Below, piece after piece: positions 426-54,099 of a stretch of 64,000 nucleotides of DNA (its first letter is position 1; each line of letters begins with the position of its first letter). The position numbers were made by a program, and so were the translations under genes. The stretch is taken from assembly GCA_900466005.1 (NCBI GenBank), contig UEGQ01000004.1, forward strand, positions 62,001 through 126,000. Direction: 5' to 3'. Below the pieces are notes generated by a model. It was not told the DNA's origin, made no database searches, and worked only from the letters and a program-made list of their open reading frames with translations. Source of the DNA: Hyphomicrobiales bacterium (GTDB lineage Bacteria; Pseudomonadota; Alphaproteobacteria; Rhizobiales; Rhizobiaceae).

Positions 426-1511
426 TTACCGCGCGGTTTCGATGCGCAGCCCCTCTTCGTCAAAGAGGTGGATCGGGGCGCTGGCGAAGGAGAGATCGAT
501 CACTGCCCCGGGGGTGACGGCATGCTGACCCGGTGCGACGACGAGGATCTTCTGGCTGGCGAGATCGGCATGCAGCACCGTTTCGGCGCCGAGCGCTTCA
601 ACGAGTGTCAGTTTCGCCGAGACGCTGCTTTCGCTGCGACCGAGCGTGATGTGCTGGGGACGCACGCCGACGGTCACGCGGGAGCCTTCCTTGCCGCTCA
701 TTTCTGCCAAAGGCAGTTCCAGCCGCTGACCGCCGGCGAGGGAAATGACGGTTCGCCCGGGACCGGCCGCTTCGACGGTTCCGTCGAGGAAGTTCATGTG
801 CGGTGAGCCGATGAAGCCGGCGACGAAGCGGTTTGCTGGGCGATTGTAGAGCTCGAGCGGCGTGCCGACCTGCTCGATGCGGCCGGCACGCAGCACGACG
901 ATACGGTCGGCGAGCGTCATCGCCTCGACCTGATCGTGCGTCACGTAGATCATCGTCGCCGAAAGGCGCGCATGGAGCGCGGCAAGCTCGGCGCGAGTGG
1001 AACCGCGCAGCTCGGCGTCGAGGTTCGATAGTGGCTCGTCGAGCAGGAAAGCGACGGGGCGGCGCACAATGGCGCGGCCGATGGCGACACGCTGGCGCTG
1101 GCCGCCTGAAAGCTGACCCGGGCGGCGATCGAGGTAGGCCTCGATTTCCAGCATGCGCGCGGCTTCGGTGATGCGCTCGGCGATCTCGGCTTTCGGCATG
1201 CGGGTGTTTTCAAGGCCGAAGGCGAGGTTCTGCCGCACGCTCATGTGTGGATAAAGCGCATAGGACTGGAAGACCATGGCAAGGCCACGGTCGGCGGCGG
1301 GCACGGTGTTGACGACCTTGCCGTCGATTGCGAGTTCCCCGCTCGATGGCCGGTCAAGGCCGGCGATCATGCGCAGGAGGGTCGATTTTCCGCAACCCGA
1401 GGGACCGACGAAGACGACGAACTCGCCGTCCGCGATCTCCAGGTTGATGTCCTGGATCACGTCGACGGCGCCGAAGGACTTCTTCACGTTGGTGAGCCTG
1501 ATATGTCCCAT
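426..1511 (-). CDS. Sugar ABC transporter ATP-binding protein (UgpC/MsmK/MalK type)
   Basis: This is the 361-residue nucleotide-binding subunit of a carbohydrate importer. Visible motifs are Walker [10 protein letters not shown] (residues 36-44), signature [14 protein letters not shown], Walker B and D-loop [11 protein letters not shown], and the H-loop YVTHDQVEA. The C-terminal ~130 residues form the TOBE/MalK-type regulatory domain ([10 protein letters not shown]). It is the last gene of the minus-strand operon and starts 9 bp after the permease stop, with AGGGGAG as ribosome site. The partner permeases and binding protein are immediately upstream, so the substrate should be the oligo-uronide processed by the GH105/KduI genes of the same operon. 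Confidence 0.95.
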
Positions 1512-3724: not shown

Positions 3725-4993
3725 TTACAGGCCGGAATCCTTCACCTTGGCTGCGATATCCGCATCGATGCGAGTGAAGGCCTCGTCGACGGACATCTCA
3801 CCGGCGGCTGCCTGGCTGACGCGCGTGACGAGCGCACCGTAGAAGGTGTCGGACCAGAACCAGCCCGGCAGCTTCTGGGCGAGCTCGGAGAGCGAACCCG
3901 TCGCCGAGACGAAGGTGTTGAGGGCTTCCTTCGCCTGCGCGTCGTCGGTCTTGAAGTCCAGGCCCTTGGCGAGCAGTCCCTTGTGGGCTGGCAGGAACAG
4001 CGTGCGTTCGGAAAATTCCTTCACGATGTCCTCGCGGGCGAGGTAGTCCATGACCTTCGCCACTTCTTTCGGGTTCTTCGTGTACTTGATTGCCACGAGG
4101 CCGGCGCCGCCCGGCATGCCGGTGCAATTGGCCGGGCCGCAGGGGCTGCCGGTCGCGACCCAGTCGAAGTTCGAGCCGATCTTGGTGGAGAAATTCGGCA
4201 CCTGCCAGGAGCCGGAATAGTAGTAGACGAGCTGCCCGTTGATGAAGTCGTCGGCGGCCGCACGGTAGGTGGAGCCGGCTGCCGAGACCCAGACGTCCTT
4301 GCCCATCGTGCCGTCTTCGATCCAGCCGACGAACTTCGTCAAGAAGTCCTTGGCGCCCTGGTCGAGGGGAGCCGGCTTGCCGTCGGCGCCGACATAATTT
4401 CCGCCATAAGAGAGAATGGGACCGGTCAGGCGATGGCCGGAACGGTCGAGCGCCATGGCGAAGGGCACCTGCTGGCTTTCGGCCACCTGCTTGGCAGCCT
4501 TCGCCCAGTCGTCCCAGGTCGCGTCCTTGCCGGGCATGGCGACGCCCGCCTGATCGAACAGCGTCTTGTTGGCAAAGCCGCCGGTCAGCGTGATCTGGGT
4601 CATGAAGCCGGAGATCTGGTTCGATCCGTCCGGCCGCATCCAGTCGGCCTGCGCGCCGAAATTCTCGTCCCAGTAGGCCGGATCGGCAACGAGGGGGCGG
4701 AGATCGAGCCAGTGCTGGCTCTGCGCCTTCAGGTTCGTCACGCGGGCGATGTCCGGACCTGCGCCCGCTTCGAGCTGGACGGGAAGCTGCTCGCGCACAA
4801 CGCTATAGGCGACGTTGTCGAGGATGACGTTGATCCCCGTGTTTTCCTTCATGAAGCGGTCGAGCAGATCCTTCAGGACCTCGCCTTCGACGCCGTCCGA
4901 ATACCACATGATGCGCACGTCGCCGGCGAGCGCCGACGTCGATGTCAGAAGCCCGACGGCGAGTGCCGCCAGAACGGTTCTTGTCTTCTTCAT
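3725..4993 (-). CDS. Sugar ABC transporter extracellular substrate-binding protein (family 1)
   Basis: The protein is 422 residues from the ATG at 4993, chosen over an upstream ATG because GAGGAGG lies just before it and because MKKTRTVLAALAVGLL...SALA is a clean signal peptide. The mature protein begins near GDVRIMWYSDGVEG and has the family-1 solute-binding fold (PDIARVTNLKAQ, SGSWQVPNFS). It captures an oligosaccharide in the periplasm for the permease pair downstream. It belongs to the operon that also carries GH105, KduI and the ~830-aa protein, so the ligand is probably an unsaturated uronic-acid oligosaccharide; this is context, not sequence, evidence. Confidence 0.92.
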   Translation of the reverse strand: MKKTRTVLAALAVGLLTSTSALAGDVRIMWYSDGVEGEVLKDLLDRFMKENTGINVILDNVAYSVVREQLPVQLEAGAGPDIARVTNLKAQSQHWLDLRPLVADPAYWDENFGAQADWMRPDGSNQISGFMTQITLTGGFANKTLFDQAGVAMPGKDATWDDWAKAAKQVAESQQVPFAMALDRSGHRLTGPILSYGGNYVGADGKPAPLDQGAKDFLTKFVGWIEDGTMGKDVWVSAAGSTYRAAADDFINGQLVYYYSGSWQVPNFSTKIGSNFDWVATGSPCGPANCTGMPGGAGLVAIKYTKNPKEVAKVMDYLAREDIVKEFSERTLFLPAHKGLLAKGLDFKTDDAQAKEALNTFVSATGSLSELAQKLPGWFWSDTFYGALVTRVSQAAAGEMSVDEAFTRIDADIAAKVKDSGL

Positions 4994-5075
4994 GGTCGTT
5001 CCTCCTCTCCAATCAGCGGGTCTCCCGCCCGCCATGTTCGAAACCCGCCAGCCTCATGCGGGCGGGGCATTCCGG

Positions 5076-7559
5076 CTAGTAAGCCGGGAGCATCGCCGCC
5101 GCACCGGCGACGGTGAATGTCTCGGGCCCGATGGTGCGGCCCTCCGCCTCCGCGGAGCCGTCGGCCCGGAAGCGCACAACGCCATATTCCGGGTCATCGA
5201 TCGCGAACGTGCCGTCCGCCTCCTCCCGGACCGCCAGCCCGGCGAAGCGCGCCTCGACGCTCGCGAGATCGGAGGCTTCGCTGACGCGGACGATCCATCG
5301 GGTGTTGCGGCCGCGCTGACGCAGTTCCGCATCGGCCGACGGTCCTTCGGCGACGCGCTCGAACGGCACGCTGCCGCGCAGGAGCACGGCGCCCTTGCCA
5401 CTGCGGGCGACAGCGAGATTTCCTTCAACACGGCTCTCGTCGAACTCTGCGACGGGGAACCAGGCATGGGTGAAGTCCACCTGTTCATCGACCGTTTGGA
5501 AATCGAGAACCGCAAGCCCGCGATACTGGTGGGTGCGCGGGACCGCGCCACAGCCGCCCCAGTAGGATGGACGACCGTAGCCGAACTGGATCGTCTCGCC
5601 CGGATGATTGATCCAGATTGCCGCCTCCGGCCGCTCGCCGAGCCTTAGATGCAGCACGGTTTCCTGATAGCCCCAGTCGTGCCAACGATAATGGGCAACC
5701 GAGCCCATGGCAAAGGCGCGGCTCTTGTAGTGATAGAGCGCGGCGAAGCGGTTCTCGCCCTGGGCGAAGCACCACTCCTGGTGCTCCTCGGAGTGATGGT
5801 TCGCGATGTCGGCGAGAGCCTCCGGCACGACGAGACCGTGGTCGCGCAGACAGACGGCGAGTTGCGGCAGGGCATGGACGCGCCGGCCGTACCAGCCATG
5901 GCCCCAGAGCAGGCGCGCGACGCCGGAGAGCTCGAGCGATCGGCCGGCGCAAAGCGTATGCTCGTAGGATCGGCCCTGCGCGGCGGTCAGCATGCCGTGA
6001 TGGGCCGAACGCGCGACGATCTCGCAGAGGCGGACGATACCTTTCCGGGCGCGCGTCGCAATGTCCGCGTCGGGCGCGAGCGCGGCGAGTGCCGTCAGAC
6101 CCTTGAGGTCGATCGGAAAATAGGGGGCGGAGTTGAATTCCGCCATCTCCCAGGCCTCGAAATGATCGAGCCATGCGCGCACCCGGGCGGCACCAACGGC
6201 GCGTTGGTCCGCTCCCTTGCGCCCGGACCGGACGAAGACATTTTCAGGAAAGAGAGTGCCGGCGAGATAGGCCGAGGTATGGAAGAGAAGCGCATGGTTC
6301 TCGGAAAAGTACCACTGCACGTCGTTGCCCGGTTCATCCATCCAGTAGCGGAAACCGAGGATGGCGCGGTCGATGCGCGCGCGGGTCGCGGTGCCGATAT
6401 CCCCACCCCAGACGGTGCGCGACCAGATGAGCGGCACGAGAGAGAAATCGGCGCAGTCGTGGCAGTCCTCGATCGACGGCAAGATCTCCTCGATCATCGC
6501 ATCCGTGTCGGCACCGCCGCGGTCGCTGGCGAGCCGCGCGAAGGCGCGCACGGTGTCGCGCTCGGAATATTCGGAGATCTCGTCGAGTGTTTCCTCGATG
6601 CGGGCGGAAAGCGTTTCCGGCGCTTCGCCCTGCCGGGCGGCATGGCAGATCTCGGCGCCGATCGACCGGGCTGCCACGAAACCTTCCGCGTCGAGCGCCA
6701 CGCGGAAATGGCGGAAGTCGGCGGGCATGGCGCTCGACGGGCCGACGACGAAACGGGTCTCGCCGGCCTTGAGCCGGAAATCATAGTCGAAGCGTTCGGT
6801 CGACATGAAGTCGCCTTCGACCGCGACTGCGACCTCGACGTCCATCGGCAGCGGCGCGCCGAAAATCAGCGTTATGTCGCCTTCGAAATAGGCCGGGCGA
6901 TCGAAGTGCATTCCGTCGAGGGCGGTTTCCACCGCATCGGCCGCGGACGGCGCGCAGGGGACGGGCAGGGCGACCGCGGCCTTCGGACCCGACAAATAAT
7001 CGAGCTGGATGAAATAGCGGGCATCGCGTTCGGCGAGGTCGTCGAAGAACAGGATGATCTCGTTGAGGCCTTCCTGAAGCGGAAGATCGAATTCTGCCTT
7101 GGCTTCGAGATTGCGGCTATAGGGCGCCATCCAGCCTGCTTCATCGCCGTTCAGCCAGAGCACGGCGCCGCCGCACGTGCCGAGGCGAACCCTTGCCGTT
7201 CCCGCCGCTTCTGCTTCGATAAAGGTACGTGCCCAGGTGGCAAGGCGCGTCGGACGGAACCAGAAGCCGGAGAGATCGAGCCGCGGCGAACCGAAGGGCA
7301 GCCACCAGCGGGCGGCCTCGAAGGAGCCGCGAACGTCGGGACGGTCGCCGCGAAAACGCTCGGCGAAGAGAGTGCGGCAGGGATACTCGTGCGGAATGAA
7401 GTTCTTGTGCTTGGTCAGGAAGAAGAAGGGGTCCATCTCGCCCTTCATCGGCTGGTCCGGCACGTCGAAACGCTCTTCGGCGATGGCACCGAGCTGCCAG
7501 TAGCGAATGGCCTCTCCGGCCGGCAGGTCTTTTTTCATATGGAAGGTCGTTTTCGTCAT
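5076..7559 (-). CDS. Uncharacterised ~830-residue protein, candidate cytoplasmic polysaccharide lyase (copy A)
   Basis: This 827-residue protein belongs to no family I recognise. It has no signal peptide or membrane segment. The layout looks like an N-terminal beta-sandwich (about 1-320; SGFWFRPTRLATW, TCGGAVLWLNGDEAG), a helical middle (about 330-620) and a C-terminal beta region containing INHPGE and RPSYWGG. It is clearly paralogous to the protein at 51568-54072: EPGNDVQW, FSENHALLFH (E420, N421, H422), NSAPYFPID (N476, Y480) and SGRKG are shared, with the same 55-residue spacing between the two motifs. Helical toroid plus beta-sheet, with conserved Asn, His and Tyr, recalls heparinase-type lyases. 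It overlaps kduI by 4 bp and sits one gene from a GH105. The lyase role is inferred. Confidence 0.6.
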   Translation of the reverse strand: MTKTTFHMKKDLPAGEAIRYWQLGAIAEERFDVPDQPMKGEMDPFFFLTKHKNFIPHEYPCRTLFAERFRGDRPDVRGSFEAARWWLPFGSPRLDLSGFWFRPTRLATWARTFIEAEAAGTARVRLGTCGGAVLWLNGDEAGWMAPYSRNLEAKAEFDLPLQEGLNEIILFFDDLAERDARYFIQLDYLSGPKAAVALPVPCAPSAADAVETALDGMHFDRPAYFEGDITLIFGAPLPMDVEVAVAVEGDFMSTERFDYDFRLKAGETRFVVGPSSAMPADFRHFRVALDAEGFVAARSIGAEICHAARQGEAPETLSARIEETLDEISEYSERDTVRAFARLASDRGGADTDAMIEEILPSIEDCHDCADFSLVPLIWSRTVWGGDIGTATRARIDRAILGFRYWMDEPGNDVQWYFSENHALLFHTSAYLAGTLFPENVFVRSGRKGADQRAVGAARVRAWLDHFEAWEMAEFNSAPYFPIDLKGLTALAALAPDADIATRARKGIVRLCEIVARSAHHGMLTAAQGRSYEHTLCAGRSLELSGVARLLWGHGWYGRRVHALPQLAVCLRDHGLVVPEALADIANHHSEEHQEWCFAQGENRFAALYHYKSRAFAMGSVAHYRWHDWGYQETVLHLRLGERPEAAIWINHPGETIQFGYGRPSYWGGCGAVPRTHQYRGLAVLDFQTVDEQVDFTHAWFPVAEFDESRVEGNLAVARSGKGAVLLRGSVPFERVAEGPSADAELRQRGRNTRWIVRVSEASDLASVEARFAGLAVREEADGTFAIDDPEYGVVRFRADGSAEAEGRTIGPETFTVAGAAAMLPAY

Positions 7560-8392
7560 TTGAGATCAGCCACGGCTACGGGAGCGACGTCGTTGTATTC
7601 CTGGTTTTCGCCGGTCATGCCCCAGACGAAGGCGTAAGGTCCCGTACCTGCGCCCATGTGGATCGACCAGGCGGGGGAGAGGACCGCCTCACCGTCCGCG
7701 ACGATCAGGTGGCGGGTCTCCTCCGGCCGTCCCATCACGTGGATGACCCGGTCCTCCGGCGAGAGGTCGAAGTAGCAGTAGGCCTCCATCCGCCGTTCGT
7801 GCAGGTGCGGCGGCATGGTGTTCCAGGCGCTGCCTTCGGCAAGGTCGGTGATACCCATGAGCAGCAGGCAGGACGGGGCGACCTCCGGATGGATGTACAT
7901 CGCGAGCCGGCGCCTGTTCGAGCGGCGCGCATCGCCGAGATCGAGGGGCTTCGCTTCTCTGCGGGTGATCAGACGGTGCGGGAAGTCGGCGCCGGCCGGC
8001 ACCGAATTCATGTAGAAGCGGGCGGGCCTCTCCGCCGACAGGCTGGAGGCGGTCATCTGCCGGGCGCCGCGGCCGACATAGAGCACGTCGCGGTTTTCGA
8101 GCGCGAAGCGTTGGCCATCCACCTCGATTACGCCGGTACCGCCGAGATTGGCGATCCCCATTTCCCGGGCGGAGAGCAGATAGGGCGTGCCGATCTCCGC
8201 GCCGGAGTCGAAGACAAGGCTCGTCGTCACCGGCACGGCACCGCCGAGGATGAGGCGATCGATATGGGTATAGGTGAAGTTGACCTGATCGTCGGCAAAG
8301 AGGTCGCTCAGCAGGAAGGCGTCCCGCAGGCGTTGCGTGTCATACCCTTTCACGTCCTGCGGCCCGGCGCCGTAGAGTAGCTTCATCGTCAT
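7556..8392 (-). CDS. kduI: 5-dehydro-4-deoxy-D-glucuronate isomerase KduI
   Basis: KduI isomerises 4-deoxy-L-threo-5-hexosulose uronate (from unsaturated uronic acids) to 2,5-diketo-3-deoxygluconate in the cytoplasm. The start at 8392 gives 278 residues, the usual length, and overlaps the GH105 stop as ATGA with GGAGGG upstream. With this start the cupin metal ligands fall at H196, H198, E203 (HLHERRME) and H245 (SIHMG), the same numbers as in the E. coli enzyme. KduD, KdgK and KdgA are not in the window. Its presence in the operon shows that the GH105 product is an unsaturated uronate. Confidence 0.95.
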   Translation of the reverse strand: MTMKLLYGAGPQDVKGYDTQRLRDAFLLSDLFADDQVNFTYTHIDRLILGGAVPVTTSLVFDSGAEIGTPYLLSAREMGIANLGGTGVIEVDGQRFALENRDVLYVGRGARQMTASSLSAERPARFYMNSVPAGADFPHRLITRREAKPLDLGDARRSNRRRLAMYIHPEVAPSCLLLMGITDLAEGSAWNTMPPHLHERRMEAYCYFDLSPEDRVIHVMGRPEETRHLIVADGEAVLSPAWSIHMGAGTGPYAFVWGMTGENQEYNDVAPVAVADLK

Positions 8393-9489
8393 GCCGCCTG
8401 TCCCTCCGCTCCAACATGGTTGAGCGCCTCCGAAAGGCACAGGATCGCCAGCGCCTGGCCGTAGCCGGTCGGCTGGATCGGAATGTCCTTGTAGAACTGC
8501 AGGTCGTGACCCATGCGGGTACCGTAGGAAACGTTGAGGACGGTGCCGCTTTCGTCGATGTTGCGCATCACCGCCTCGAGCGCCCGAAGCCCGGCGCTTC
8601 GCCAGGCCGGCGTGCCGAGGCCGAGCCGATAGCCCTTCAGGAGTCCGTAGCCGATGCCGGCGGTCGCGGAAATCTCCTCATAGGATGAGGGATCGTCGAG
8701 GAGTGTGCGCCAAGCGCCGGACGGTGCCTGAAGTCTGAGCAAGGTGTCAACCTGTGCCACCAGCACGCCTTCGAGGAAGCGTCGCACCGGCCGGCCGAGT
8801 TCGGCGAGGTCGAAAAGGTCGAGAATGCCGGCGGTGATCCAGGCATTGCCACGCGCCCAGCGGGCACGTGCGAAATTGTGCCGTCCCTCGAAGGTCCAGC
8901 CGTGGAACCAGAGGCCGGTCTGGGGATCGGCGAGGTAGCGTGTATGGACGAGAAACTGGAGCGAAGCCTCGTCGACGAGTTCGCGCCGGCCGCTTGCCTC
9001 ACCGTAGGAGGCGAGGAAGAGCGCCACCATGTAGAGCGTGTCGTCCCAGAGCTCGTTGTCGTTGATCCTGTCGGAGACGTGGTGTTCGAAGCCGCCTTCC
9101 GGCGTGCGGCCCATTTCGGAGAGCACGCGGTTCGCCCAGGTGTCGAGCACGGGCTGCCATCGCGGGTCGCGGGTTTTCGCCCAGAGAACCGAAAGGCCGA
9201 GCATCGGCGCGGTGGTGTTGACGTTGAGGCCCGGCAGGCCGCCGGCAATCTGTGAGGCGTACCAGTCCTCGACGAGCCTGCGCAGATCCTCGCGACCGGT
9301 CAGCAGCCACAGGCGTACGAGCCCATAGAGGCCGACACCCTGGGGCCATTCCCAGCTGTCGAAGCTGATGTAGTCGCCGGCGGTACCGTCGAGGTTCGGC
9401 TCGTGAAAACGACCGCTGTGCTTGAGGCCGGTCATGCCGGCGACAAGGCGATCGAGTCCAGTGCGAATTTCATGGCCGGTCAGGCCCAT
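8389..9489 (-). CDS. GH88/GH105 unsaturated uronyl hydrolase (YteR-like), copy 1
   Basis: The 366-residue protein starts at ATG 9489 (GGGAGGAG ribosome site) rather than an upstream ATG in the divergent promoter region. It has the (alpha/alpha)6 pattern of GH105 enzymes, with ELWDDTLYM holding D149/D150, where the family's catalytic Asp sits, plus W-rich blocks WFHGWTFEGRHNFARARWARGN. These enzymes remove the terminal unsaturated galacturonic or glucuronic acid left by a lyase, by hydrating the C4=C5 bond. No signal peptide is present, so it works in the cytoplasm after import. It is the first gene of the operon and has a paralogue at 54100-55221 (WYHGWTFNGRHNFARAFWARGN). Confidence 0.9.
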   Translation of the reverse strand: MGLTGHEIRTGLDRLVAGMTGLKHSGRFHEPNLDGTAGDYISFDSWEWPQGVGLYGLVRLWLLTGREDLRRLVEDWYASQIAGGLPGLNVNTTAPMLGLSVLWAKTRDPRWQPVLDTWANRVLSEMGRTPEGGFEHHVSDRINDNELWDDTLYMVALFLASYGEASGRRELVDEASLQFLVHTRYLADPQTGLWFHGWTFEGRHNFARARWARGNAWITAGILDLFDLAELGRPVRRFLEGVLVAQVDTLLRLQAPSGAWRTLLDDPSSYEEISATAGIGYGLLKGYRLGLGTPAWRSAGLRALEAVMRNIDESGTVLNVSYGTRMGHDLQFYKDIPIQPTGYGQALAILCLSEALNHVGAEGQAA

Positions 9490-9599
9490 GGTGCTCCTCC
9501 CTGCGGTCACCGATGGACGGATTTGACTCGATAATGCATGGTGATTTTTCTTGCGCAATCTGAAAATTTTTCTCATGTTGGCGCGGAGAGAGGTGAACC
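9490..9599. promoter_or_regulatory. Divergent promoter region between uronate operon and its LacI regulator
   Basis: The 110-bp gap is AT-rich in its middle. It contains the palindrome TTGCGCAA (9551-9558) flanked by TTTTC (9546-9550) and GAAAA (9562-9566), an inverted pair, and a nearby GAAAA-T-TTTTC (9562-9572). These are plausible operators for the adjacent LacI protein. On the minus strand a TTGCGC / CATTAT pair with 16-bp spacing could serve the GH105 operon. Element assignments are tentative. Confidence 0.4.
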
Positions 9600-10652
9600 G
9601 TGACCGTAAAACCGCTCCCCGGCAAGCGGGGGAAGAAGAGCAGGAAGGTGCGCCTGGAGGACATCGCCGAGCGCTGCGGAGTGTCCCTCAGCACGGTCTC
9701 GCGTGCGCTTGCAGGCGAGAAAGGCGTTCGGCCGGAGATCCGTCAGCAAATACTGGAGGCGGCGAAAACGGCGAACTACGTCGTCCCGACGGCGGTTGCG
9801 GGGCGGAAGGTCATCCTCGCGGCATCCAGCGCGGCGATGATCGACTATGTGAGAAACCAGTTCACGCTCTACGTGCTCGATGGACTCAAGGAACGGGCGC
9901 AGGCGTTCGGGCTCGAGATCATAACGCGGCCGATCGCCGACAAGGCGGAGGAACTGACGCTCCTCGAAGAAGCGAGGGACGATCCGGAGATCCTGGGTCT
10001 GTTGTTTCTGACGGTCGATGACGAGGCGTTGCTTGCCGCCACGCGCGGCTTTCAGAAGCCGGTGATACTCTTGAACGGCGATGATCCGTTCATGCGGCTT
10101 TCGAGTGTCACGCCCTGCAACCGGTCGAGTGCGCGACTGGCCGCCGATCACCTGATCGGCCTCGGCCACCGTCGCATCCTCTTCCTTATGCGGCCGGGGC
10201 GCCGCACCATCGAGCGGCGTTACGAAGGCTGGCGCGACGCGCTGCTCCACCACGGTCTTGCCGCCGATCCGGACCTCGTCGTGCCGGTCGACGATTGGCT
10301 GCCGGAACTGGCAACACAGGCGATCGTCTCTCGCATCCGGGCGCGCGGGCTGGATTTCACGGCCGTTCTGGCGGCCGGTGACAGCCTTGCCGTCGGCGCA
10401 ATGCTGGGCGTGCAGCAGATGGGCTATGTCGTGCCGCGCGACGTGTCGGTGATGGGCATGGACGACCTGCCGCAGGCCGCCTTCCTCAATCCGCCGTTGA
10501 CGACCATGCACATTCCGATGCGGGAGATCGGTTCGGCTGCGCTCGACCTCTTGCGTGACAGCCTTTCCGGCATGCCGTTTCCACCACGCCGTCTGGAACT
10601 CGCCTGCCACCTGGTGGAACGAGCTTCGACGGCGAAGAGGGCGGAAAGCTGA
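9600..10652 (+). CDS. LacI-family transcriptional regulator of the uronate operon
   Basis: The protein is 350 residues with a GTG start after a GAGAGAGG ribosome site. The N-terminal helix-turn-helix is VRLEDIAERCGVSLSTVSRALAGE (about 17-40), followed by the hinge helix and a periplasmic-binding-like sensor domain (SVTPCNRSSARLAADHLIGLGHRRILFL). It is transcribed away from the GH105-kduI-ABC operon, the usual place for a local repressor. The likely inducer is a sugar or uronate intermediate. A good intrinsic terminator follows it. Confidence 0.93.
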   Translation: MTVKPLPGKRGKKSRKVRLEDIAERCGVSLSTVSRALAGEKGVRPEIRQQILEAAKTANYVVPTAVAGRKVILAASSAAMIDYVRNQFTLYVLDGLKERAQAFGLEIITRPIADKAEELTLLEEARDDPEILGLLFLTVDDEALLAATRGFQKPVILLNGDDPFMRLSSVTPCNRSSARLAADHLIGLGHRRILFLMRPGRRTIERRYEGWRDALLHHGLAADPDLVVPVDDWLPELATQAIVSRIRARGLDFTAVLAAGDSLAVGAMLGVQQMGYVVPRDVSVMGMDDLPQAAFLNPPLTTMHIPMREIGSAALDLLRDSLSGMPFPPRRLELACHLVERASTAKRAES

Positions 10653-38493: not shown

Positions 38494-41400
38494 ATGAAGG
38501 CAATCCGAAAGCTCGACAACCTGCTTGCCCATCTCGCGGAGCGAATTTTTTCGCCGCTCGGCGTCGAGGTGCCGCTCGCCTTTGCCCCGGCGAGCGCGAC
38601 AGACCGCGCGGCGATGGTTGCCTCCGACAGAAAGGACTGGGTGGCCGTCGACCGCAATCTCGTCTGGGGCGAACCGGACGGTTATTACTGGTTCGGCGGG
38701 GCGGCCGTGCTGCCGGCCGCCGCCGAAGGCAGGCGCGTGGTCTGCCGGGTGGAAGCTGCCTTCGGCAACGTCATGGGGCGTAGCGACCCGCAATGTCTCG
38801 TCCGTGTCGACGGGCGCATCCGACAGGGCGCCGACGGCAACCACCGCGAATTCCTTCTGACGGAAAGCGGGCGCGCCGGAGAACAGTTCGACATCCTGAT
38901 CGAGGCCGGTACGATCGAGGACCGCCGCCAGCTCGGTTTCGCCTGCGCGCTCTTTACGCACGACCTCGTGGTCGAGGATCTCTATTACGATCTCAAGGTG
39001 CCCCTCGACGTGGCGCGCTTGCTCGCCGAGGACGACCCGCGCCGGCATTTCATTCTGAACGCCATTGGTGCGGCCATCGACATGGTCGACCTCAGGCCGG
39101 GGAACCCCGCCCGCTTCAGGGCCTCCGTTGCTGCTGCCAAGGCGGCCGCGGCGCAGATCTACGCGGCCGGCGACTTCGAGGCGAAACCGACGGTCGTCGC
39201 GACCGGCCATACCCATATCGACGTCGCCTGGCTGTGGCGCGTGCGCGAGACGCGCCAGAAGATGGCTCGGTCCATGGCCACGGCGCTGGCGCTCATGGAG
39301 GAGTTTCCCGACTACCGTTTCATGTACAACCAGTGCGTCCTGCTCGACTGTCTCCATCAGGACTATCCGGAACTCTTCGAACGCATCACCGCAGAGGTCC
39401 GCTCCGGCCGTTTCGAGATCGAGGGAGCTCTGTGGCTCGAACCCGACGTCAACATCGCCGGAGGCGAGGCGCTGGTCCGGCAGATTCTCCACGGCATCCA
39501 CTATCATGAGCGAACCTTCGGCGTGCGACCGCGCATGATCTGGCTGCCGGACACGTTCGGCTACTCGGCCTCGTTACCGCAACTCATGGCGAAGTCGGGT
39601 CTCGACACCTTCGTCACCCACAAGCTCTCCTGGAACGACACCAACCGCATGCCGGATGAAACGCTGTTCTGGCAGGGCATCGACGGCTCCACGGTCACGG
39701 CCTACTTTCTGACGACGCAGCCTTACGATTCGAAGAGCATCGGCACGACCTACTGTCCGAACCTGAAGCCGACGCACGTGATGGGCACATGGCGCAGGCA
39801 CGGGCAACAGGACCTCAGCAAGGAACTCTTCCTGGTCTACGGCCATGGGGACGGCGGCGGCGGCCCGACCCGCGAGATGCTGCACAACATCCGCCGCATG
39901 GAGCGCGGCATTCCCGGCTGCCCGAAGGTCGTCCACGCGCCGATGCGGCCTTTCTTCGAACGTCTGCTCGCGCGGATGAAGGCCGAGCCGGAGCGATACC
40001 CGATCTGGGTGGGCGAACTCTACGCCGAGTTCCACCGCGGCACGCTGACCTCCGTCGCAAAGAACAAGCGCAACAACCGGCTCGCCGAAACGGCGCTCCG
40101 TGAGATCGAGACCCTTGCCGTCCTTGCCGCGCGTCACCGCGGAGAAGCCTATCCTGCCGAAGAACTCCGGGCGCTCTGGGATATCGTGCTGCTCAACCAG
40201 TTCCACGACATCCTGCCGGGGTCCTCCATCGGCGCCGTCTATGAGGACAGCGACGCCGGCTACGCCGAGTTTTTCGCCCGCGCGAATGCGCTGTCGGCGA
40301 GAATGGCGGGCAGGCTCGCGCCTGCGGGCAGCAAGGCGCTCTTCAACGCGGCAGGACGTTCCCGCGGCGGTCTCGTCGTCTCTCCGGAGCCATTCGGTCG
40401 TCCACAAGAGCAGAAGCTTGTTCTCGCCGACGGTGGAGAGGCCTATGGCCTGTTGGTGTCGGCCGTTCCGGCACTTGCCGTGCTCGATCTCGCCGGACAC
40501 GGCGTGCATGTGCCGGCCGACGTGCTCTCTGTCTCGGAGCGGCATATCGAGAACGAACGTCTGTCCGTGCGCTTCGACGAGGCAGGTCGAATTACATCGA
40601 TCCGGGACAAGAAGACCGGGCGGGAAGTTCTGAAAACCGGTCGCGTCGGAAACCGGCTGCAGGCTTTCCGTGACATGCCCGCCCAGTTCGACGCCTGGGA
40701 CATCGATTCCGACTTCGAGGACCAGGTCTTCGAGATCGATGCGCTTGTCGGTGCCGAGGTGCTGGAGCGCGGGCCGCTTCGGGCGGCCGTCCGTTTCGAA
40801 TGGCGCTACGAGTCCTCGCGGATCGTGCAGGTCGTCTCGCTTGCGGCAGGAGCGCGGCAGGTGGAGATTGATTGTTTCATCGACTGGCGCGAGCACAACA
40901 CGCTGGTGAAGGCGGCCTTCCCGCTTGATCTCAATACCGCTGCCGTGGATGCGGAGATCCAGTTCGGCCATGTACGACGCGCGAGCCACCGGAATACCTC
41001 CTGGGACCGTGCGCGGTTCGAATGCGCGATGCAGCGCTGGATCGATATCGGCGAACCGGACTTCGGCGTCGCTTTGCTCAACGACTGCAAATACGGCTAC
41101 GACGCCAAGGGTACGGATATTCGCCTGACGCTGCTCCGTTCCCCGACCTATCCCTGGCCGGAGGCGGACCAAGGTGAACACCGGTTCCGTTACGCCGTCA
41201 TGGTCCACGATGGTGACAAGCTGGCGGTGCACGAGGCGGCGGAAGACTTCAACCTGCCGCTGCGCCTGGTCGAAGGTGGCGAGGGCGGCGAGGCGCCACC
41301 GCCGCTTCTCTCGGTCGAGACGCCCGGCATTGCGGTCGAGGCCGTCAAGCAGGCAGAGGAGGGCGGCGCCACGATCGTTCGTCTGTGGGAGGTGACAGGC

Positions 41401-41559
41401 GCGCGCCGTACCGCGCGGATCATGGTCGATCCGGCAATCAGGACTGCGGAACTGGTCGACCTCCTGGAACGGGACGGGCGGCCCCTCGCTCTCGAAGACG
41501 GCGCGCTGACGCTTGCCTTCGCTCCCTTCGAAATCACCACGCTGATGCTGAGAGGCTGA
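38494..41559 (+). CDS. GH38 alpha-mannosidase
   Basis: The 1021-residue protein has the family layout: N-terminal domain, catalytic domain with zinc ligands in GHTHIDVAWLWR (H241, D243), nucleophile D353 in LPDTFGYSASLPQLM, and QFHDILPGSSIG (H571), followed by the long beta-rich C-terminal half. It would release alpha-linked mannose from an imported oligosaccharide in the cytoplasm; no signal peptide is visible. A GGGAGGAGGG ribosome site precedes the ATG. It sits between GH28 and a PHP hydrolase, so the glycan probably carries alpha-mannosyl side groups. Confidence 0.95.
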   Translation: MKAIRKLDNLLAHLAERIFSPLGVEVPLAFAPASATDRAAMVASDRKDWVAVDRNLVWGEPDGYYWFGGAAVLPAAAEGRRVVCRVEAAFGNVMGRSDPQCLVRVDGRIRQGADGNHREFLLTESGRAGEQFDILIEAGTIEDRRQLGFACALFTHDLVVEDLYYDLKVPLDVARLLAEDDPRRHFILNAIGAAIDMVDLRPGNPARFRASVAAAKAAAAQIYAAGDFEAKPTVVATGHTHIDVAWLWRVRETRQKMARSMATALALMEEFPDYRFMYNQCVLLDCLHQDYPELFERITAEVRSGRFEIEGALWLEPDVNIAGGEALVRQILHGIHYHERTFGVRPRMIWLPDTFGYSASLPQLMAKSGLDTFVTHKLSWNDTNRMPDETLFWQGIDGSTVTAYFLTTQPYDSKSIGTTYCPNLKPTHVMGTWRRHGQQDLSKELFLVYGHGDGGGGPTREMLHNIRRMERGIPGCPKVVHAPMRPFFERLLARMKAEPERYPIWVGELYAEFHRGTLTSVAKNKRNNRLAETALREIETLAVLAARHRGEAYPAEELRALWDIVLLNQFHDILPGSSIGAVYEDSDAGYAEFFARANALSARMAGRLAPAGSKALFNAAGRSRGGLVVSPEPFGRPQEQKLVLADGGEAYGLLVSAVPALAVLDLAGHGVHVPADVLSVSERHIENERLSVRFDEAGRITSIRDKKTGREVLKTGRVGNRLQAFRDMPAQFDAWDIDSDFEDQVFEIDALVGAEVLERGPLRAAVRFEWRYESSRIVQVVSLAAGARQVEIDCFIDWREHNTLVKAAFPLDLNTAAVDAEIQFGHVRRASHRNTSWDRARFECAMQRWIDIGEPDFGVALLNDCKYGYDAKGTDIRLTLLRSPTYPWPEADQGEHRFRYAVMVHDGDKLAVHEAAEDFNLPLRLVEGGEGGEAPPPLLSVETPGIAVEAVKQAEEGGATIVRLWEVTGARRTARIMVDPAIRTAELVDLLERDGRPLALEDGALTLAFAPFEITTLMLRG

Positions 41560-41562: not shown

Positions 41563-42801
41563 ATGTCCACACAGAACCGCGTGATCACCGCCACCATCGA
41601 CCACTTCCCGGACGGTGAGAAATCCTTCGTCGAAATTCCGTTCGAGGTCGGATCCGATATAGAGCGGATCGAGGTGAGCTATCACTTTCCGTTCGGTGGT
41701 GGCGGCAGCGTCATCGACCTCGGTGTTGCCCGCAACGGCCTCATGCGCGGCTGGACGGGCGCCGAACGCGGTCACATCACGCTGGAGGAGGATCGGGCGA
41801 CGCCGGGATACGAGCCGGGCCCGCTTGCGGGCGCGTGGCACGTCGTGCTGGGCATCGTGAAGATCGGACCGAACTGCAAGGTCGACGTCGAGATCCGCCT
41901 GGTCGGCCGCCAGCGGCGCTGGCTCGTCGGCGAGTTGCACAGCCATTCGGAGCATTCCGACGGCGGCGTCACCGTGCTCGACGCGATCCACCGTGCGCGC
42001 ACCTCGGACCTCGATTTTTTGGCGATCACCGACCACAATACCGTGACGCAGAATACTGTCCGGCCGGACGACCCCGGCATTCTCGTCATCCCGGCGATGG
42101 AACTCACCTCCTACTGGGGCCACACGAACTTTCTCGGCGTGCCGCGTCCGGTCGCGGACTGGCGCTGCCGTTCACCCCGTGACGTTGCCGACAAGATGGC
42201 CGAGGCGCGAGCCAACGGAGCGACCATCGTGATCAACCACCCCTTCCAGAATTCGGCCGGTGGGCGCTGGCAATCGGGTTTCGGCGTCGCCTTCGACGCG
42301 CTGGAAATCTGGAACGGCAACTGGTCGGTGATGAACGAGCAGGGGCTTGCCTTCTGGCAGGAGCTGTTGGCTTCCGGTCGGCGTGTTCCGGCAACCGGCG
42401 GCAGCGATTTCCACCTGAAGAACCGAAGGCGTCACGGGCGGCCGGCCAACCGGCTCTGCGTGGAGGGGATATCCGTGTCCGACATCCTCGCCGCCGTGCG
42501 GGCGGGCCGTAACGTGGTCGCCTTTGCGCCCGATGAGACGATGGCAAAGCCTTCCACGGATGAAATGCCGGACTTCGGGTCGCAGGTTGCCGCCGGGCGA
42601 GAGATTTCCGTGACCTTTACCGGCCTCTCGGTGGGTGACGAAATCCGCCGCGTCACCGAGGCCGGTGTCGTGGAGGTGCTGCCGGCCGGTGACGGTCCGA
42701 CGCTCCGCCTCGACCGGCGGTTTGCCGGGCGCTTCGTGCGCTACGAGGTCTGGCATGATAAGGAACCGAGACTTTTCACCAATCCGTTCTATGGAGAATA
42801 G
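41563..42801 (+). CDS. PHP-domain CehA/McbA-type metallohydrolase
   Basis: The 412-residue protein has a ~110-residue N-terminal beta domain and a C-terminal PHP domain with the metal-binding motifs GELHSHSEHSDGG (H126, H128), ITDHNT, PAMELTSYWGH, INHPF and GSDFHLK. PHP enzymes hydrolyse phosphoesters and the CehA/McbA branch also cleaves carbamate-type esters. It starts 4 bp after the mannosidase stop. In this setting it may remove a phosphate or ester group from the sugar; the true substrate cannot be read from sequence. Confidence 0.85.
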   Translation: MSTQNRVITATIDHFPDGEKSFVEIPFEVGSDIERIEVSYHFPFGGGGSVIDLGVARNGLMRGWTGAERGHITLEEDRATPGYEPGPLAGAWHVVLGIVKIGPNCKVDVEIRLVGRQRRWLVGELHSHSEHSDGGVTVLDAIHRARTSDLDFLAITDHNTVTQNTVRPDDPGILVIPAMELTSYWGHTNFLGVPRPVADWRCRSPRDVADKMAEARANGATIVINHPFQNSAGGRWQSGFGVAFDALEIWNGNWSVMNEQGLAFWQELLASGRRVPATGGSDFHLKNRRRHGRPANRLCVEGISVSDILAAVRAGRNVVAFAPDETMAKPSTDEMPDFGSQVAAGREISVTFTGLSVGDEIRRVTEAGVVEVLPAGDGPTLRLDRRFAGRFVRYEVWHDKEPRLFTNPFYGE

Positions 42802-42804: not shown

Positions 42805-43866
42805 GTGCCCCTCGAAAGACGACCGGAACGCAAGATCGGTATCAAGGATGTGTCGCGGGAGGCCGGCGTTGCACTCAGCACGGTTTCCCATGTCCTGAAC
42901 GGTACCGCACCGATTTCGCAGGAGGTGCGCGTGCGGGTGCTGGAAGCGGCGCGCAAGCTCGGCTATCTCGCGAAGCGCCAGCGCAAGGGCGCCATCGCCT
43001 CGCTCAGTACGCTCTATCTCGCGGTTCCGCCCGGCAACCTGCCGCACAACGACATCAATCTCGTGTCATGGACGCTGCTGACTGCGCTTTCGCGGGAATG
43101 CGAGCGGCGCGGTATCCGTATCGTCGCCCATAACGGCGCGCCACAGCTCAACGCCGCCGAGATTCTTGCGGGCGCGCGCGCCGCGGAAGCGGAAGCGATT
43201 GCCGTCGTTTTCGACGATAATCCGAAACTGCTGAAGGGGCTTGCCGGCAGCGACATCGCCGTCGTTCTCCTGAACGGCGAGGATCCGACGATGAGCATTG
43301 ACACGGTCGCTCCGGCCAACCGCTACGGTGCCCGGCTCGCGACCGAATGGCTGCTTTCAAGAGGTCACCGACGGATACTGCACCTGACCTGGCGCGGTCG
43401 CAGCACGATCATGCGCCGGCTCGACGGCTTTCATGACGCCTATCTCCAGCATGAATTGCCGATCGATCTCGGGGAGGTGCTCTATGCGAAGGGCTATGAG
43501 CCTGAGCATGCGCGCGATGCCCTGCGCACCTTTGTGGCGGAGCGGGGTGGTCTCGACGGATTTACCGCCGTCTTCTGTGCCGCCGACAATCTCGCGATCG
43601 GTGCGCTCACCGAACTTCAGGCGCTCGGCTTCCGCATCCCGGCCGACATCGCTGTCGTCGGCTTCGACGGTGTGGCGCCGGGTGATCTCACACAGCCATC
43701 GCTGACGACGGTCAGGGTGCCGCTCGATGCATTGGCGGTCGCCACCGTCCAGACGCTGGAGCAAAGGCTGTCGGGTGCCGGCCGTGACCAGCCGGCAACC
43801 AGAATCGAACTCGGCTGTCGCTTGATCGAGCGCGAGAGTGGCGGCTCGGCTTTGCCGAGTTTGTGA
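42805..43866 (+). CDS. LacI-family transcriptional regulator of the second glycan locus
   Basis: The 353-residue protein starts at GTG 42805, 3 bp after the PHP stop. The helix-turn-helix is IGIKDVSREAGVALSTVSHVLNG, followed by the hinge and the periplasmic-binding-like sensor (SIDTVAPANRYGARLATEWLLSRGHRRILHL). It is inside the operon rather than divergent, and may act on its own promoter at 36913-37107 and on the transporter promoter just downstream. It resembles the regulator at 9600-10652 in overall build. Confidence 0.93.
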   Translation: MPLERRPERKIGIKDVSREAGVALSTVSHVLNGTAPISQEVRVRVLEAARKLGYLAKRQRKGAIASLSTLYLAVPPGNLPHNDINLVSWTLLTALSRECERRGIRIVAHNGAPQLNAAEILAGARAAEAEAIAVVFDDNPKLLKGLAGSDIAVVLLNGEDPTMSIDTVAPANRYGARLATEWLLSRGHRRILHLTWRGRSTIMRRLDGFHDAYLQHELPIDLGEVLYAKGYEPEHARDALRTFVAERGGLDGFTAVFCAADNLAIGALTELQALGFRIPADIAVVGFDGVAPGDLTQPSLTTVRVPLDALAVATVQTLEQRLSGAGRDQPATRIELGCRLIERESGGSALPSL

Positions 43867-43977
43867 AAAAATTTTTAAGCTTGATTTTTGGATGTCGATA
43901 CACGATCGTCCGATATACGGCGATATCGCGAGAAAAAAGAGGGATCGCGGCTCCGTTTGCTGAACTGGGAGGTTGGC
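43867..43977 (+). promoter_or_regulatory. Promoter/operator region before the oligopeptide-type ABC operon
   Basis: The 111-bp gap has a perfect palindrome GCGATATCGC at 43920-43929 and three CGATA words in the same orientation (about 43896, 43911, 43921), spaced 15 and 10 bp. An AT-rich tract lies just after the LacI stop. This could be where the LacI protein upstream binds. No promoter hexamers stand out, so the call rests on repeats only. Confidence 0.35.
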
Positions 43978-45882
43978 ATGATTTTCAATGAAAATATTTT
44001 CGCATCTTCTCTTGGTGTATTGATGGCGACGTGCCTCGCGGGGTCGGCCTTCGCGTTCCAGGAATCGCCGATGCTTGCGGAACAGGTGAAGGCGGGCAAG
44101 CTGCCGCCCGTCGAGCAGCGTCTCCCGGAAAAGCCGACGGTTCTGCAGGTCGCAGAGGTCGGCAAGTACGGCGGCAACTGGCAGCGCGCCTACAAGGGGC
44201 CGGGCGACCGCTGGGGACCGACGAAGCTGATGGAAGAGCGCGTCGTCAAGTGGTCGCAGAAGCCGGGCGGGCCGCTGGAGCTCGTTCCGGGTTACATCTC
44301 GTCCTACTCCGTGAGCGAGGATTCGCGCGAATTCACTTTCGCGCTGCTGAAGGGTCTCAAGTGGTCCGACGGCGAGCCCGTCACCACCGAGGACGTCCGC
44401 TTCTGGTATGAAGACGTCTTCATGAACAAGGACATCCTGCCTTCGATCGACCAGACATTGGCGCCGGGCGGCAAGCCGATGAAGCTGGAAATCGTCGACG
44501 AGCAGACCTTCAAGGTGAAGTTCGACGAGCCGTATGTCTATTTCCTCGAGATTCTCGCGAAGGACTCCACCGGCGATCCGAGCCTCGACCGTCCGAGCTT
44601 CCTTTTCCCCAAGCATTATCTGAAGCAGTTCAACAACAAATATGCCTCCGAGGACGAGCTGAAGGCGGCGGCCACGAAGTTCGGCGTGGAGAAGTGGACG
44701 GATCTCTGGGGCTCGAAGGGTGCCGCGACCGCCTGGTGGCAGAACCCGGACCTGCCGGTGGTCACCGCATGGAAGATCGAGAAGCCCGCTCCGGGCGATG
44801 TCGTGACCATGGTGCGGAACCCATACTATTACGCCGTCGACCAGGCCGGCAACCAGCTGCCCTATATCGATCGCATCTCGCACAAGCTGTTCAGTGATCA
44901 GGAGGCGTTCAACCTGATGATCGTCCAGGGGCAGATCGACATGCAGATGCGCTATGTCGAGCCGCAGGACTTCACCTTCTATAAGGAGAACGAGGCCAAG
45001 GGTGGCTACAAGGTCCACCGCTGGACGCAGGCGCAGACGTGGTCGCTCGTGCCGAACCTCAACGTCAAGGACGAGGTGCTGCGCGGCCTGTTCGAAACCT
45101 CCGATTTCCGCGAGGCGCTGAGCATCGCAATCGACCGCGAGACAGTGAACGAGCTGATCTTCTCGGGCCTTGCGGAAGCGCGCCAGGCCTCGCCTGTCTC
45201 CGGTTCACCGAATTTCGATCCGGAGCTGGAAAAGCACTGGACCGAATACGATCCGGACAAGGCGAATGCGCTTCTCGACGGTATCGGCCTCGACAAGCGG
45301 GACGGCGACGGTTTCCGTCTGCGCCCCGACGGCAAGCGCCTGTCGATCGTCGTGGAGATGGAGCATTCGAATGGCCCGAAGACCATGGAAATCGTCGCCG
45401 CCAACTACAAGGACATCGGCGTCGAGCTGTTGCCGCGGATCATCGACCGTACCCAGTGGGACGCCGATCGCGACAACAACGAGTTCCAGATGCAATGGTA
45501 TCCGTTCGACCGCCTGTCGGTCGTCGCGGCCGACCCGCGCATCATGATGGGCAACGATTCCTACGCTCATCAGTACTACATCTGGTACACGACCAAGGGG
45601 GCCTCCGGCATCGAGCCGCCGGCCGACCATCCGATCCGCACGCTCTTTGCCGACTGGGACAAAGCCGGCAAGGCTGCCGATCGCAAGGAAGCGGATGCAG
45701 CGCTCAACGACCTGATCAAGACTTTTGTCACGCAAGGCTGGGTCATCGGCGTCGTGGGTGAGTTGCCGGCCATTTCGGTCGTGAAGAACAACTTCAAGAA
45801 CTTCCCCGACGACCTCATCGAGGACGACATCACACGTGGCATCGGTCTTGGCGCCACGCAGCGGATGTGGATGGCGCAATAG
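43978..45882 (+). CDS. ABC transporter substrate-binding protein, family 5 (oligopeptide/oligosaccharide type)
   Basis: The start at 43978 (GGGAGG upstream) gives 634 residues with a signal peptide (MIFNENIFASSLGVLMATCLAGSAFA). The fold is the large family-5 type (FTFALLKGLKWSDGEPVTTEDVRFWYEDV, IDRETVNELIFSGLAE). Although the family is named for peptides, the flanking glycosidases suggest an oligosaccharide ligand, as for several rhizobial and Thermotoga members. A 146-bp gap with hairpins separates it from the permease genes. Confidence 0.92.
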   Translation: MIFNENIFASSLGVLMATCLAGSAFAFQESPMLAEQVKAGKLPPVEQRLPEKPTVLQVAEVGKYGGNWQRAYKGPGDRWGPTKLMEERVVKWSQKPGGPLELVPGYISSYSVSEDSREFTFALLKGLKWSDGEPVTTEDVRFWYEDVFMNKDILPSIDQTLAPGGKPMKLEIVDEQTFKVKFDEPYVYFLEILAKDSTGDPSLDRPSFLFPKHYLKQFNNKYASEDELKAAATKFGVEKWTDLWGSKGAATAWWQNPDLPVVTAWKIEKPAPGDVVTMVRNPYYYAVDQAGNQLPYIDRISHKLFSDQEAFNLMIVQGQIDMQMRYVEPQDFTFYKENEAKGGYKVHRWTQAQTWSLVPNLNVKDEVLRGLFETSDFREALSIAIDRETVNELIFSGLAEARQASPVSGSPNFDPELEKHWTEYDPDKANALLDGIGLDKRDGDGFRLRPDGKRLSIVVEMEHSNGPKTMEIVAANYKDIGVELLPRIIDRTQWDADRDNNEFQMQWYPFDRLSVVAADPRIMMGNDSYAHQYYIWYTTKGASGIEPPADHPIRTLFADWDKAGKAADRKEADAALNDLIKTFVTQGWVIGVVGELPAISVVKNNFKNFPDDLIEDDITRGIGLGATQRMWMAQ

Positions 45883-46028
45883 GCGGAAGGTTCGCGGGAG
45901 ATCACGGCAGGCCGCCGGCTCGAAAGGTGTCGGCGGTCCCTGTCCCAGACCCCGGGGAGAATCCCGGTCACCATCCGGCGGAAGGATGTCGGCGACCGGG
46001 CGACGTGTTGGGAACAGGAGGTGGCGTC
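45883..46028 (+). other. Intercistronic hairpins after family-5 binding-protein gene
   Basis: GGCCGCCG (45910-45917) pairs with CGGCGGTC (45931-45938) with one G-U pair, and further GC-rich pairing partners (CCCCGGGG near 45950) follow. There is no T-run. The ribosome site AGGAGGTGG for the next gene is at the end of the gap. The probable role is to set the ratio of binding protein to permease. Confidence 0.5.
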
Positions 46029-47015: not shown

Positions 47016-47022
47016 GGTGCAA

Positions 47023-54072: not shown

Positions 54073-54099
54073 CCGTTTTCTCTTGTGACAGGATCGCCG

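Follow-up and report, generated by a model that had tools for sequence, protein, structure and literature searches.

A widespread protein family, often beside GH105, that resembles uronic-acid lyases in predicted fold and plausible catalytic residues

Which enzyme prepares the unsaturated uronide for a hydrolase of glycoside hydrolase (GH) family 105? The question is raised twice in a stretch of 64,000 nucleotides from a soil bacterium of the Hyphomicrobiales (assembly GCA_900466005.1, contig UEGQ01000004.1, positions 62,001 to 126,000; “the window”), where two related genes, here called P0001 and P0002, each stand close to a GH88/105 gene. A first-pass annotation made from the sequence alone had proposed that their products are new polysaccharide lyases (PL). 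Our analysis places both proteins in a widespread family whose predicted fold and plausible catalytic residues are those of uronic-acid lyases and which is usually, not invariably, linked to GH105. The modelled shape, the residue conservation and the gene neighbourhood together suggest that the family probably breaks down acidic sugars within the cell by elimination, and we consider it likely, short of firm confidence, that its members are cytoplasmic enzymes of uronic-acid beta-elimination, most likely oligosaccharide lyases, feeding GH105.

The two paralogues and their predicted structure

The two genes and the domains modelled for P0001 are as follows.

5076..7559, minus strand: P0002, second paralogue, 827 amino acids, with Asn421, His422 and Tyr480
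51568..54072, plus strand: P0001, first paralogue, 834 amino acids, with Asn427, His428, Tyr486 and His653
P0001, predicted domains: N-terminal beta domains 14-310 (18-194 resembling the N-domain of GH2 beta-glucuronidases), toroid at about 322-587, C-terminal beta domain at about 593-830

Both open reading frames are full-length and lie in separate loci, as first annotated; the gene at 5076-7559 runs on the minus strand, the plus reading having a stop in that frame. With P0001 as query, a search of the whole genome retrieved P0002 (E 5.8e-117, 34% identity) and no third copy, and an alignment across the whole length gives 33% identity. The motifs reported as shared were found again in both proteins: SENHAL starts at 425 in P0001 and at 419 in P0002, NSA.Y.PID at 482 and 476, INHPGE at 651 and 650, and RPSYW at 664 and 663. 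The reported spacing of 55 residues is identical in the two, from Asn427 to Asn482 and from Asn421 to Asn476. Neither paralogue possesses a strongly hydrophobic N-terminus (best Kyte-Doolittle mean over 15 residues 0.65 for P0001 and 0.39 for P0002, windows starting at residues 1-45), which agrees with the earlier statement that signal peptides are lacking, and we infer a location in the cytoplasm.

An AlphaFold model of full-length P0001, built from 17 alignment rows (predicted local distance difference test, pLDDT, 80.5), comprises beta domains at the N-terminus, then a helical part and, at the C-terminus, a further beta domain, with residues 319-816 matching glycosaminoglycan and alginate lyases. 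Residues 312-834, modelled from a 61-row alignment, gave a better prediction than the full-length protein (pLDDT 89.7, predicted template-modelling score 0.90), in which helices at 11-274 are followed mainly by strands at 282-519 (model numbering). This predicted arrangement, an (alpha/alpha)n toroid and then an antiparallel beta-sheet, is that of PL8, PL12, PL15, PL17, PL21, PL33, PL35 and PL39, and the pairing of toroid and beta-sheet that the first-pass annotation had named as a check is present in the model.

Without exception, the 14 best Foldseek chains for the 312-834 model belong to polysaccharide lyases of the toroid type (E 9.3e-8 to 8.0e-5, probability 1.00), namely PL15 3a0o/3afl, PL17 4ok4/4ojz, PL35 8khw/8khv, PL33 8r6z, chondroitinase 9o3q, PL12 5jmd, PL8 1rwa/1rw9 and PL39 6jp4; next in line are a GH127 protein (2.4e-4) and a further PL39 chain (4.3e-4). 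In VIA-align the nearest structures include the chondroitinase 9o3q (Z 11.7, root-mean-square deviation, rmsd, 6.0, 393 residues aligned), PL35 8khw (Z 11.6, rmsd 5.4, 395 aligned), Alg17c 4ojz (Z 11.1, rmsd 5.4, 427 aligned) and human dermatan sulfate epimerase 1, 6hzn (Z 10.9, rmsd 5.9, 446 aligned). Toroid-plus-beta-sheet lyases and this epimerase account for 47 of 50 rows shown; a PL5 lyase, a GH154 protein and a phosphorylase, at Z 8.3-8.8, take up the rest. The matches are distant, yet they cover nearly the whole of the 312-834 domain.

The candidate active-site residues point in the same direction. In known enzymes of this fold the carboxylate is neutralised by an Asn (or His); a Tyr that follows after 54-57 residues serves as acid or base, and a His or Tyr farther along helps. 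The residues are Asn192/Tyr246/His401 for GAGase II, Asn240/Tyr294/His424 for heparinase III and His311/Tyr365/His531 for PL15 (PMC12088678), Asn201, His202, Tyr258 and Tyr450 for Alg17c (PMC4765187), and the catalytic His205, Tyr261 and Tyr473 for dermatan sulfate epimerase (PMC8006597). In the 61-row alignment of our family, N427, H428, Y486, R535, Y537 and H700 (P0001 numbering) are present in every row and H653 in 59; H653 and H700 are the two candidates for the catalytic His of the beta domain. In the widest alignment, which includes an archaeon and a member from the Clostridia, N427, H428, Y486 and H653 occur in 18 of 18 rows. A candidate Asn/His neutraliser followed by a candidate catalytic Tyr is thereby found in sequence order, at a spacing slightly longer than in the known members: 59 residues from Asn427 and 58 from His428 to Tyr486 compared to 54-57, a comparison of sequence order only, and 167 residues from Tyr486 to His653 compared to 130-166.

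Profile libraries contributed little. P0001 has no match in Pfam or NCBIfam; P0002 has none in NCBIfam and in Pfam only a sub-threshold one to Pentapeptide_3 (E 0.15), which we judge to be chance (2 out of 33 diverse members, best 0.047). PHROGs yielded nothing usable for the family, and PDB sequences, profile searches included, nothing relevant to it. For the 33 diverse members, the 16 families listed at E <= 5 include no lyase or Hepar_II_III model, while nine members match PA14 in a profile search (best E 3.1e-5). A confident non-lyase match, which the first-pass annotation had named as grounds for giving up its proposal, was looked for in Pfam, NCBIfam and PHROGs and did not appear; only the weak PA14 signal in some members was seen. 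Membership in the heparinase II/III sequence family (PF07940 and relatives) was considered and dropped, no profile or profile-profile match being obtained. By these searches the sequence family appears new relative to Pfam, NCBIfam and PHROGs; the numbered PL families were reached by sequence via PDB entries only, none of which matched.

Association with GH105 and competing explanations

A further hint arises from the neighbouring genes, for which two samples were used. Family members occur in 13 of 60 genomes (the own genome and 59 relatives). A pattern scan of one genome per species, over 84,980 species, returned at least 588 confirmed stretches; the best 80 of these, largely from rhizobia, agrobacteria and other Alphaproteobacteria, are called the wider loci below, and because the best 80 were kept this sample leans to P0001-like Alphaproteobacteria.

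In the 60 genomes a GH88/105 gene lies at most 1.1 kb from 16 out of 17 family genes, and a GH88/105 gene over the cut-off occurs in 12 out of 13 family-bearing genomes compared to 8 out of 47 others, two of these eight barely (Fisher p 1e-6, uncorrected for relatedness). GH105 follows within about 200 bp downstream of the family gene in 66 of the 80 wider loci, and GH105 and KduI are both near 11 of 13 P0002-type loci (KduD near 7). The earlier claim that GH105 always stands beside these proteins is right for the window in that both copies have one nearby, with KduI in between at P0002, and too strong beyond it. The GH105 gene may lie upstream or downstream of the family gene, and the transporter may be of the SBP_bac_1, SBP_bac_5 or tripartite ATP-independent periplasmic (TRAP) type. 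A GH28 gene and an SBP_bac_1 transporter accompany GH105 in 43 of the 80, SBP_bac_5 occurs in 34, a PHP gene in 18, GH38 in 12 and KduI in 5. Members from Photobacterium and Subdoligranulum also adjoin GH105. As the pairing is seen across varied gene order, transporters and other hydrolases, it survives such changes. To judge from the sequences, KduI, KduD and GH105 fit an unsaturated-uronide pathway, in which KduI, present in the first locus, is a later step.

Beyond this the subfamilies differ: the P0002 type goes with KduI/KduD, the P0001 type with GH28 in Rhizobium and Agrobacterium and elsewhere with SBP_bac_5, HAD, PHP and GH38. They probably serve different uronides.

We propose that an ATP-binding cassette (ABC) or TRAP transporter would import acidic oligosaccharides, whose uronate the toroid domain would hold while Asn427 and His428 neutralise the carboxylate. 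Tyr486 and a second residue from the beta domain (His653 or the invariant His700) could then abstract H5 and protonate the leaving O4. The elimination would leave a 4,5-unsaturated uronide, the neighbouring BglB-type GH105 would remove the unsaturated residue, and KduI/KduD, where present, would process the resulting 5-keto-4-deoxyuronate.

The first-pass case for a lyase is borne out by the lack of a confident non-lyase profile match, the toroid/beta-sheet model and the GH105, KduI and KduD partners, and is not supported as regards the constant presence of GH105 and the premise that only lyases make 4,5-unsaturated uronides. That premise is wrong, since an oligosaccharide dehydratase also makes them (PMC8511951). 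Such a dehydratase is the main rival: with the same fold and proton abstraction it would remove water from a saturated uronate at the non-reducing end, cleave no glycosidic bond and still prepare the substrate of GH105, as ulvan P29_PDnc does (PMC8511951). According to this paper P29_PDnc dehydrates a saturated terminal uronate, and its relatives were predicted with the PL37 family. P29_PDnc supplies GH105 with an unsaturated uronide, the role proposed here for our family; it comes from another organism and acts on another substrate, and its essential residues are D248, K303 and an Arg for which both R230 and R300 are printed. The best structural neighbours of our family are lyases or an epimerase, which speaks against a dehydratase. 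GH28 stands with the pair in 43 of the wider loci, as counted above, and shows no evident signal peptide (one case, inspected by eye). GH28 hydrolases leave saturated products, so that a dehydratase fits the Rhizobium and Agrobacterium operons at least as well as a lyase. Over the family as a whole we consider it unlikely, while granting it a real chance. The same tentative weight is given to a more specific form, a second kind of dehydratase, assumed to be unrelated in sequence to P29_PDnc, which, inside the cell, would make unsaturated those terminal uronates that GH28, or GH38 after taking off mannose, leaves saturated, so that GH105 and not an ordinary uronidase finishes the degradation.

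The remaining alternatives appear far less probable. A C5-epimerase, or another uronide enzyme of this fold that does not eliminate and works before the GH105 step, is suggested by dermatan sulfate epimerase 1 among the nearest structures and by Devosia-type loci lacking GH105; it would not supply the unsaturated sugar implied by GH105 and KduI in most loci examined, and we hold it to be very unlikely. Hardly more credible is a glycoside hydrolase, or a mainly carbohydrate-binding protein, working with a true beta-galactosidase BglB. The partner GH105 does carry the beta-galactosidase name, nine of the 33 members match PA14, and the top Foldseek matches of the full-length model are GH2 proteins at poor global fit. 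In the structural alignment the GH2 rows cover essentially residues 12-194, some with stray residues near 665, and residues 18-193 match GH2 beta-glucuronidases at Z 9.6 (rmsd 3.2, 123 aligned); as essentially only the N-terminal domain aligns, the GH2 reading was dropped. No GH2 catalytic barrel follows the sugar-binding domain in the model, 312-834 being predicted as toroid plus beta-sheet and 319-816 matching lyases, and the conserved Asn-His/Tyr/His set fits elimination. KduI, present in the operon, is not known to have a role in galactose use. Least probable, and almost negligible, is a degenerate or unrelated toroid protein with another role such as sensing or transport: the structural Z values are moderate, while the invariance of the residues across bacteria and an archaeon argues for catalysis.

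Several observations weigh against an eliminating enzyme that feeds GH105, and they keep our confidence in the lyase limited. The structural matches are distant (Z 10-12 at rmsd 5-7 A, query-normalised template-modelling scores 0.37-0.46), toroid folds are common and shared by a C5-epimerase, and the loops around the proposed active site are among the weakest parts of the models. H653 is replaced by Asn or Gln in three loci (L011, L013, L019), and the archaeal member has Leu at N482 and Pro at R664. Comparison of the family by hhalign with 30 heparinase II/III (PF07940) proteins, drawn from a sample of 80 genomes, gave a probability of at most 1.5%. In the positive controls known heparinase groups reached 4.0-99.9% against each other, so true relatives also go down to 4.0%; in 4 out of 6 comparisons the best local match fell at one consistent place in the C-terminal beta domain, too weak to count. 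Fourteen of the wider loci, mostly from Devosia and Chelativorans, lack an adjacent GH105 (one of them, L029, ends 0.5 kb after the family gene), and 10 of the 14 genomes concerned contain no GH88/105 over the cut-off anywhere. The first-pass annotation had seen no other lyase in either locus. Genome-wide, in a search of chosen lyase families, PF14583 (PL22) and PF00544 gave no match, and one heparinase II/III protein is encoded on another contig, which leaves room for another source of lyase activity. Finally, the name BglB “beta-galactosidase”, if enzymatically right, would weaken the unsaturated-uronide argument, and in the 60 genomes 9 out of 25 BglB-type genes have no family member next to them.

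Further exceptions to the pairing are the P0002-type loci L159 and L160, both without GH105 (L160 is cut by the contig end), genome G040, which has no GH88/105 over the cut-off anywhere, and the Haladaptatus member, with no GH105 in the annotation within 9 kb. In the GH105-free Devosia loci genes for GH38, HAD and transporters were found and no alternative uronidase. Of the genomes with Devosia loci (L038, L046 and others) most lack a GH88/105 over the cut-off, and some of these loci have GH38 nearby.

Gene content of the two loci

The first locus has the order GH105, KduI, P0002, binding protein, two permeases and ATPase, with a divergent LacI gene. The first neighbour of P0002 on one side is KduI, and GH105 is the next gene, 0.9 kb off.

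426..1511, minus strand: ABC transporter ATPase of the MalK type (PF00005, OB_MalK)
1521-2573 and 2570-3592, minus strand: two sugar ABC permeases, read from translations; the same order is annotated as sugar ABC permeases in Phyllobacterium
3725..5035, minus strand: solute-binding protein SBP_bac_1 (PF01547, E 3.2e-25)
7556..8440, minus strand: KduI, 5-dehydro-4-deoxy-D-glucuronate isomerase (PF04962, E 5.4e-24; PRK00924 equivalog, 371 bits, cut-off 250)
8389..9576, minus strand: GH88/105 hydrolase of the first locus (PF07470, E 3.5e-82; NF051900 “beta-galactosidase BglB”, 544 bits, cut-off 420)
9600..10652, plus strand: LacI-type regulator, divergent from the first locus (PF00356, Peripla_BP_3)

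The second locus is a co-directional run of GH38, PHP/CehA-McbA hydrolase, LacI, SBP_bac_5 transporter, HAD fusion, P0001 and GH105.

38494..41559, plus strand: GH38 alpha-mannosidase, first gene of the run (PF01074, E 1.1e-77)
41563..42801, plus strand: PHP/CehA-McbA metallohydrolase (PF02811 below cut-off; NF038032, 221 bits, cut-off 80)
42805..43866, plus strand: LacI-type regulator, read from the translation
43888..45882, plus strand: solute-binding protein SBP_bac_5 (PF00496, E 2.2e-57)
45867-47015, 47017-48186, 48199-49251 and 49248-50300, plus strand: two ABC permeases and two ATPases, read from translations
50159..51571, plus strand: HAD phosphatase domain (from about residue 312) joined to an unassigned N-terminal part of about 300 residues, directly upstream of P0001; the true start of the gene is probably later than 50159
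54085..55221, plus strand: GH88/105 hydrolase of the second locus (PF07470, E 4.8e-85; NF051900 “beta-galactosidase BglB”, 553 bits, cut-off 420)

Both GH105 proteins of the window contain the motif LWDDTL, which we take to have a catalytic role. Homologues of the permeases and ATPases of the second locus are near 34-36 of the wider loci (tblastn, identity x coverage >25%), and homologues of the HAD fusion occur in 28, some without GH105. The GH38 and PHP/CehA-McbA genes heading the run suggest a substrate containing mannose and possibly phosphate. The head group of plant sphingolipids is Man-GlcA-inositol-phosphate, and from the gene content one may speculate that the substrate of the subfamily linked to GH38, PHP and HAD is a phosphorylated mannosyl-glucuronyl unit of this kind; among the papers listed in a literature search none evidently bears on the idea. 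The region 55426-60285, behind the GH105 of the second locus, encodes an oxidoreductase of the Gfo/Idh/MocA type and a CoA transferase, and reading of the translations adds an enoyl-CoA hydratase and an aldehyde dehydrogenase. Only one of the 80 wider loci has homologues of the CoA transferase and the hydratase nearby.

The label of the partner deserves a comment, as “beta-galactosidase” sits uneasily with a GH105 beside KduI. The NF051900 model is passed by both GH105 proteins of the window and by those found next to family genes, or a short way off, in A. tumefaciens B6, R. johnstonii, Subdoligranulum, Pseudosulfitobacter, Phyllobacterium and one further genome. Among the BglB-type genes over the cut-off in the 60 genomes 16 of 25 are beside a family member, compared to none of 17 weaker matches; with the remaining nine standing apart, use of the model as an exclusive marker for the family was rejected. 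At the three of these nine lone genes that were inspected (L171, L172 and L173), searching for the family gave no member. In L171 and L172 the lone BglB-type GH105 has, by reading, an IclR-like regulator on one side and a sugar ABC transporter on the other. As related BglB-type GH105 genes also stand without the family, these data do not support a need of GH105 for the family protein. A third GH105 of the genome (L152:5244-8387, contig C29) fails NF051900 and lies away from both family members; its neighbours are a polygalacturonase of the PglA type and what reads as an ABC transporter.

The BglB genes connect the family to the pglB-bglB operons. NCBIfam assigns the GH28 of R. johnstonii to PglB and the GH105 proteins of this species and of A. 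tumefaciens B6 to BglB. Both organisms have the family gene immediately before the BglB and GH28 genes, and in R. johnstonii it is annotated “hypothetical protein”. PglB is Atu4560 of Agrobacterium C58 (PMC6683767), the family context here being taken from B6 and R. johnstonii. Root exudates elicit a response of a GH28 polygalacturonase gene in Rhizobium phaseoli (PMC8581550), which may or may not belong to a pglB-bglB operon. If our proposal is true, the pglB-bglB genes of Agrobacterium and Rhizobium gain a third enzyme.

Relation to known systems and distribution

The PL35 glycosaminoglycan lyases (GAGase II/VII, 8KHV/8KHW, with the chondroitinase 9o3q alongside) resemble the predicted family fold in toroid and antiparallel beta-sheet at Z 10.1-11.7. 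Their order of residues is also alike, with an Asn neutraliser, a Tyr 54 residues later and a His further on. The family differs in its extra N-terminal beta domains, shares 8-11% identity with them and shows no homology in the profile search of PDB chains. The oligo-alginate lyases of PL17 and PL15 (Alg17c, Atu3025) give the best Foldseek E-values for the family model (PL15 9.3e-8, PL17 1.0e-7), and Alg17c has an Asn-His pair with a Tyr 56-57 residues later, as in the family order. Here identity is about 8-13%, the family lacks a Hepar_II_III match, and its neighbours are GH105, KduI and GH28 or GH38.

Oligogalacturonate lyase (Ogl, PL22) is an intracellular lyase acting before KduI/KduD and has a beta-propeller fold. 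The same cellular job is expected of our family, which on the simplest account would, like PL22, be a cytoplasmic lyase working on imported oligosaccharides; the fold differs, and PF14583 was not found in the genome. If true, the proposal adds a new family of uronic-acid-eliminating enzymes that supplies the step before GH105 and KduI in these operons, and whether it is a lyase or a dehydratase becomes a clean testable question.

The earlier description of the pair as duplicated is right in that two copies exist, and does not hold in the sense of a recent event. A maximum-likelihood tree of 44 members, rooted simply at the midpoint, separates a 10-row clade containing P0002 from a 33-row clade containing P0001, both branches supported at 100/100; the remaining row (L111) is placed unsurely due to its very long branch. 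The two clades are jointly represented, by a member each, in G102, G310 and G322 according to the tree and, by identity, also in G014, G029 and G035. The separate clades and this joint occurrence elsewhere indicate that the window carries two old subfamilies and no recent duplication.

The genome is close to Ciceribacter (Rhizobiaceae): C. lividus has a counterpart of P0001 with 93% identity in the best segment, and C. thiooxidans has counterparts of P0001 at 88% and of P0002 at 93%. In the phylum sample 9 out of 398 genomes, the own included, have family members, and in the class sample 1 out of 385, which is the window's own; since at most two candidates were scored per genome, distant members may be missed. 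Among the papers listed in literature searches none was seen to describe the family, which is not proof of absence, and existing annotation in the records examined reads “hypothetical protein” or “hypothetical conserved protein”. Plasmid records add Photobacterium (a gammaproteobacterium), Subdoligranulum (Clostridia) and Haladaptatus (an archaeon). The Haladaptatus member (L170:8956-10941) is shorter, with 661 amino acids, and largely devoid of the N-terminal beta domains; a gene annotated as heparinase II/III family protein stands about 8 kb away.

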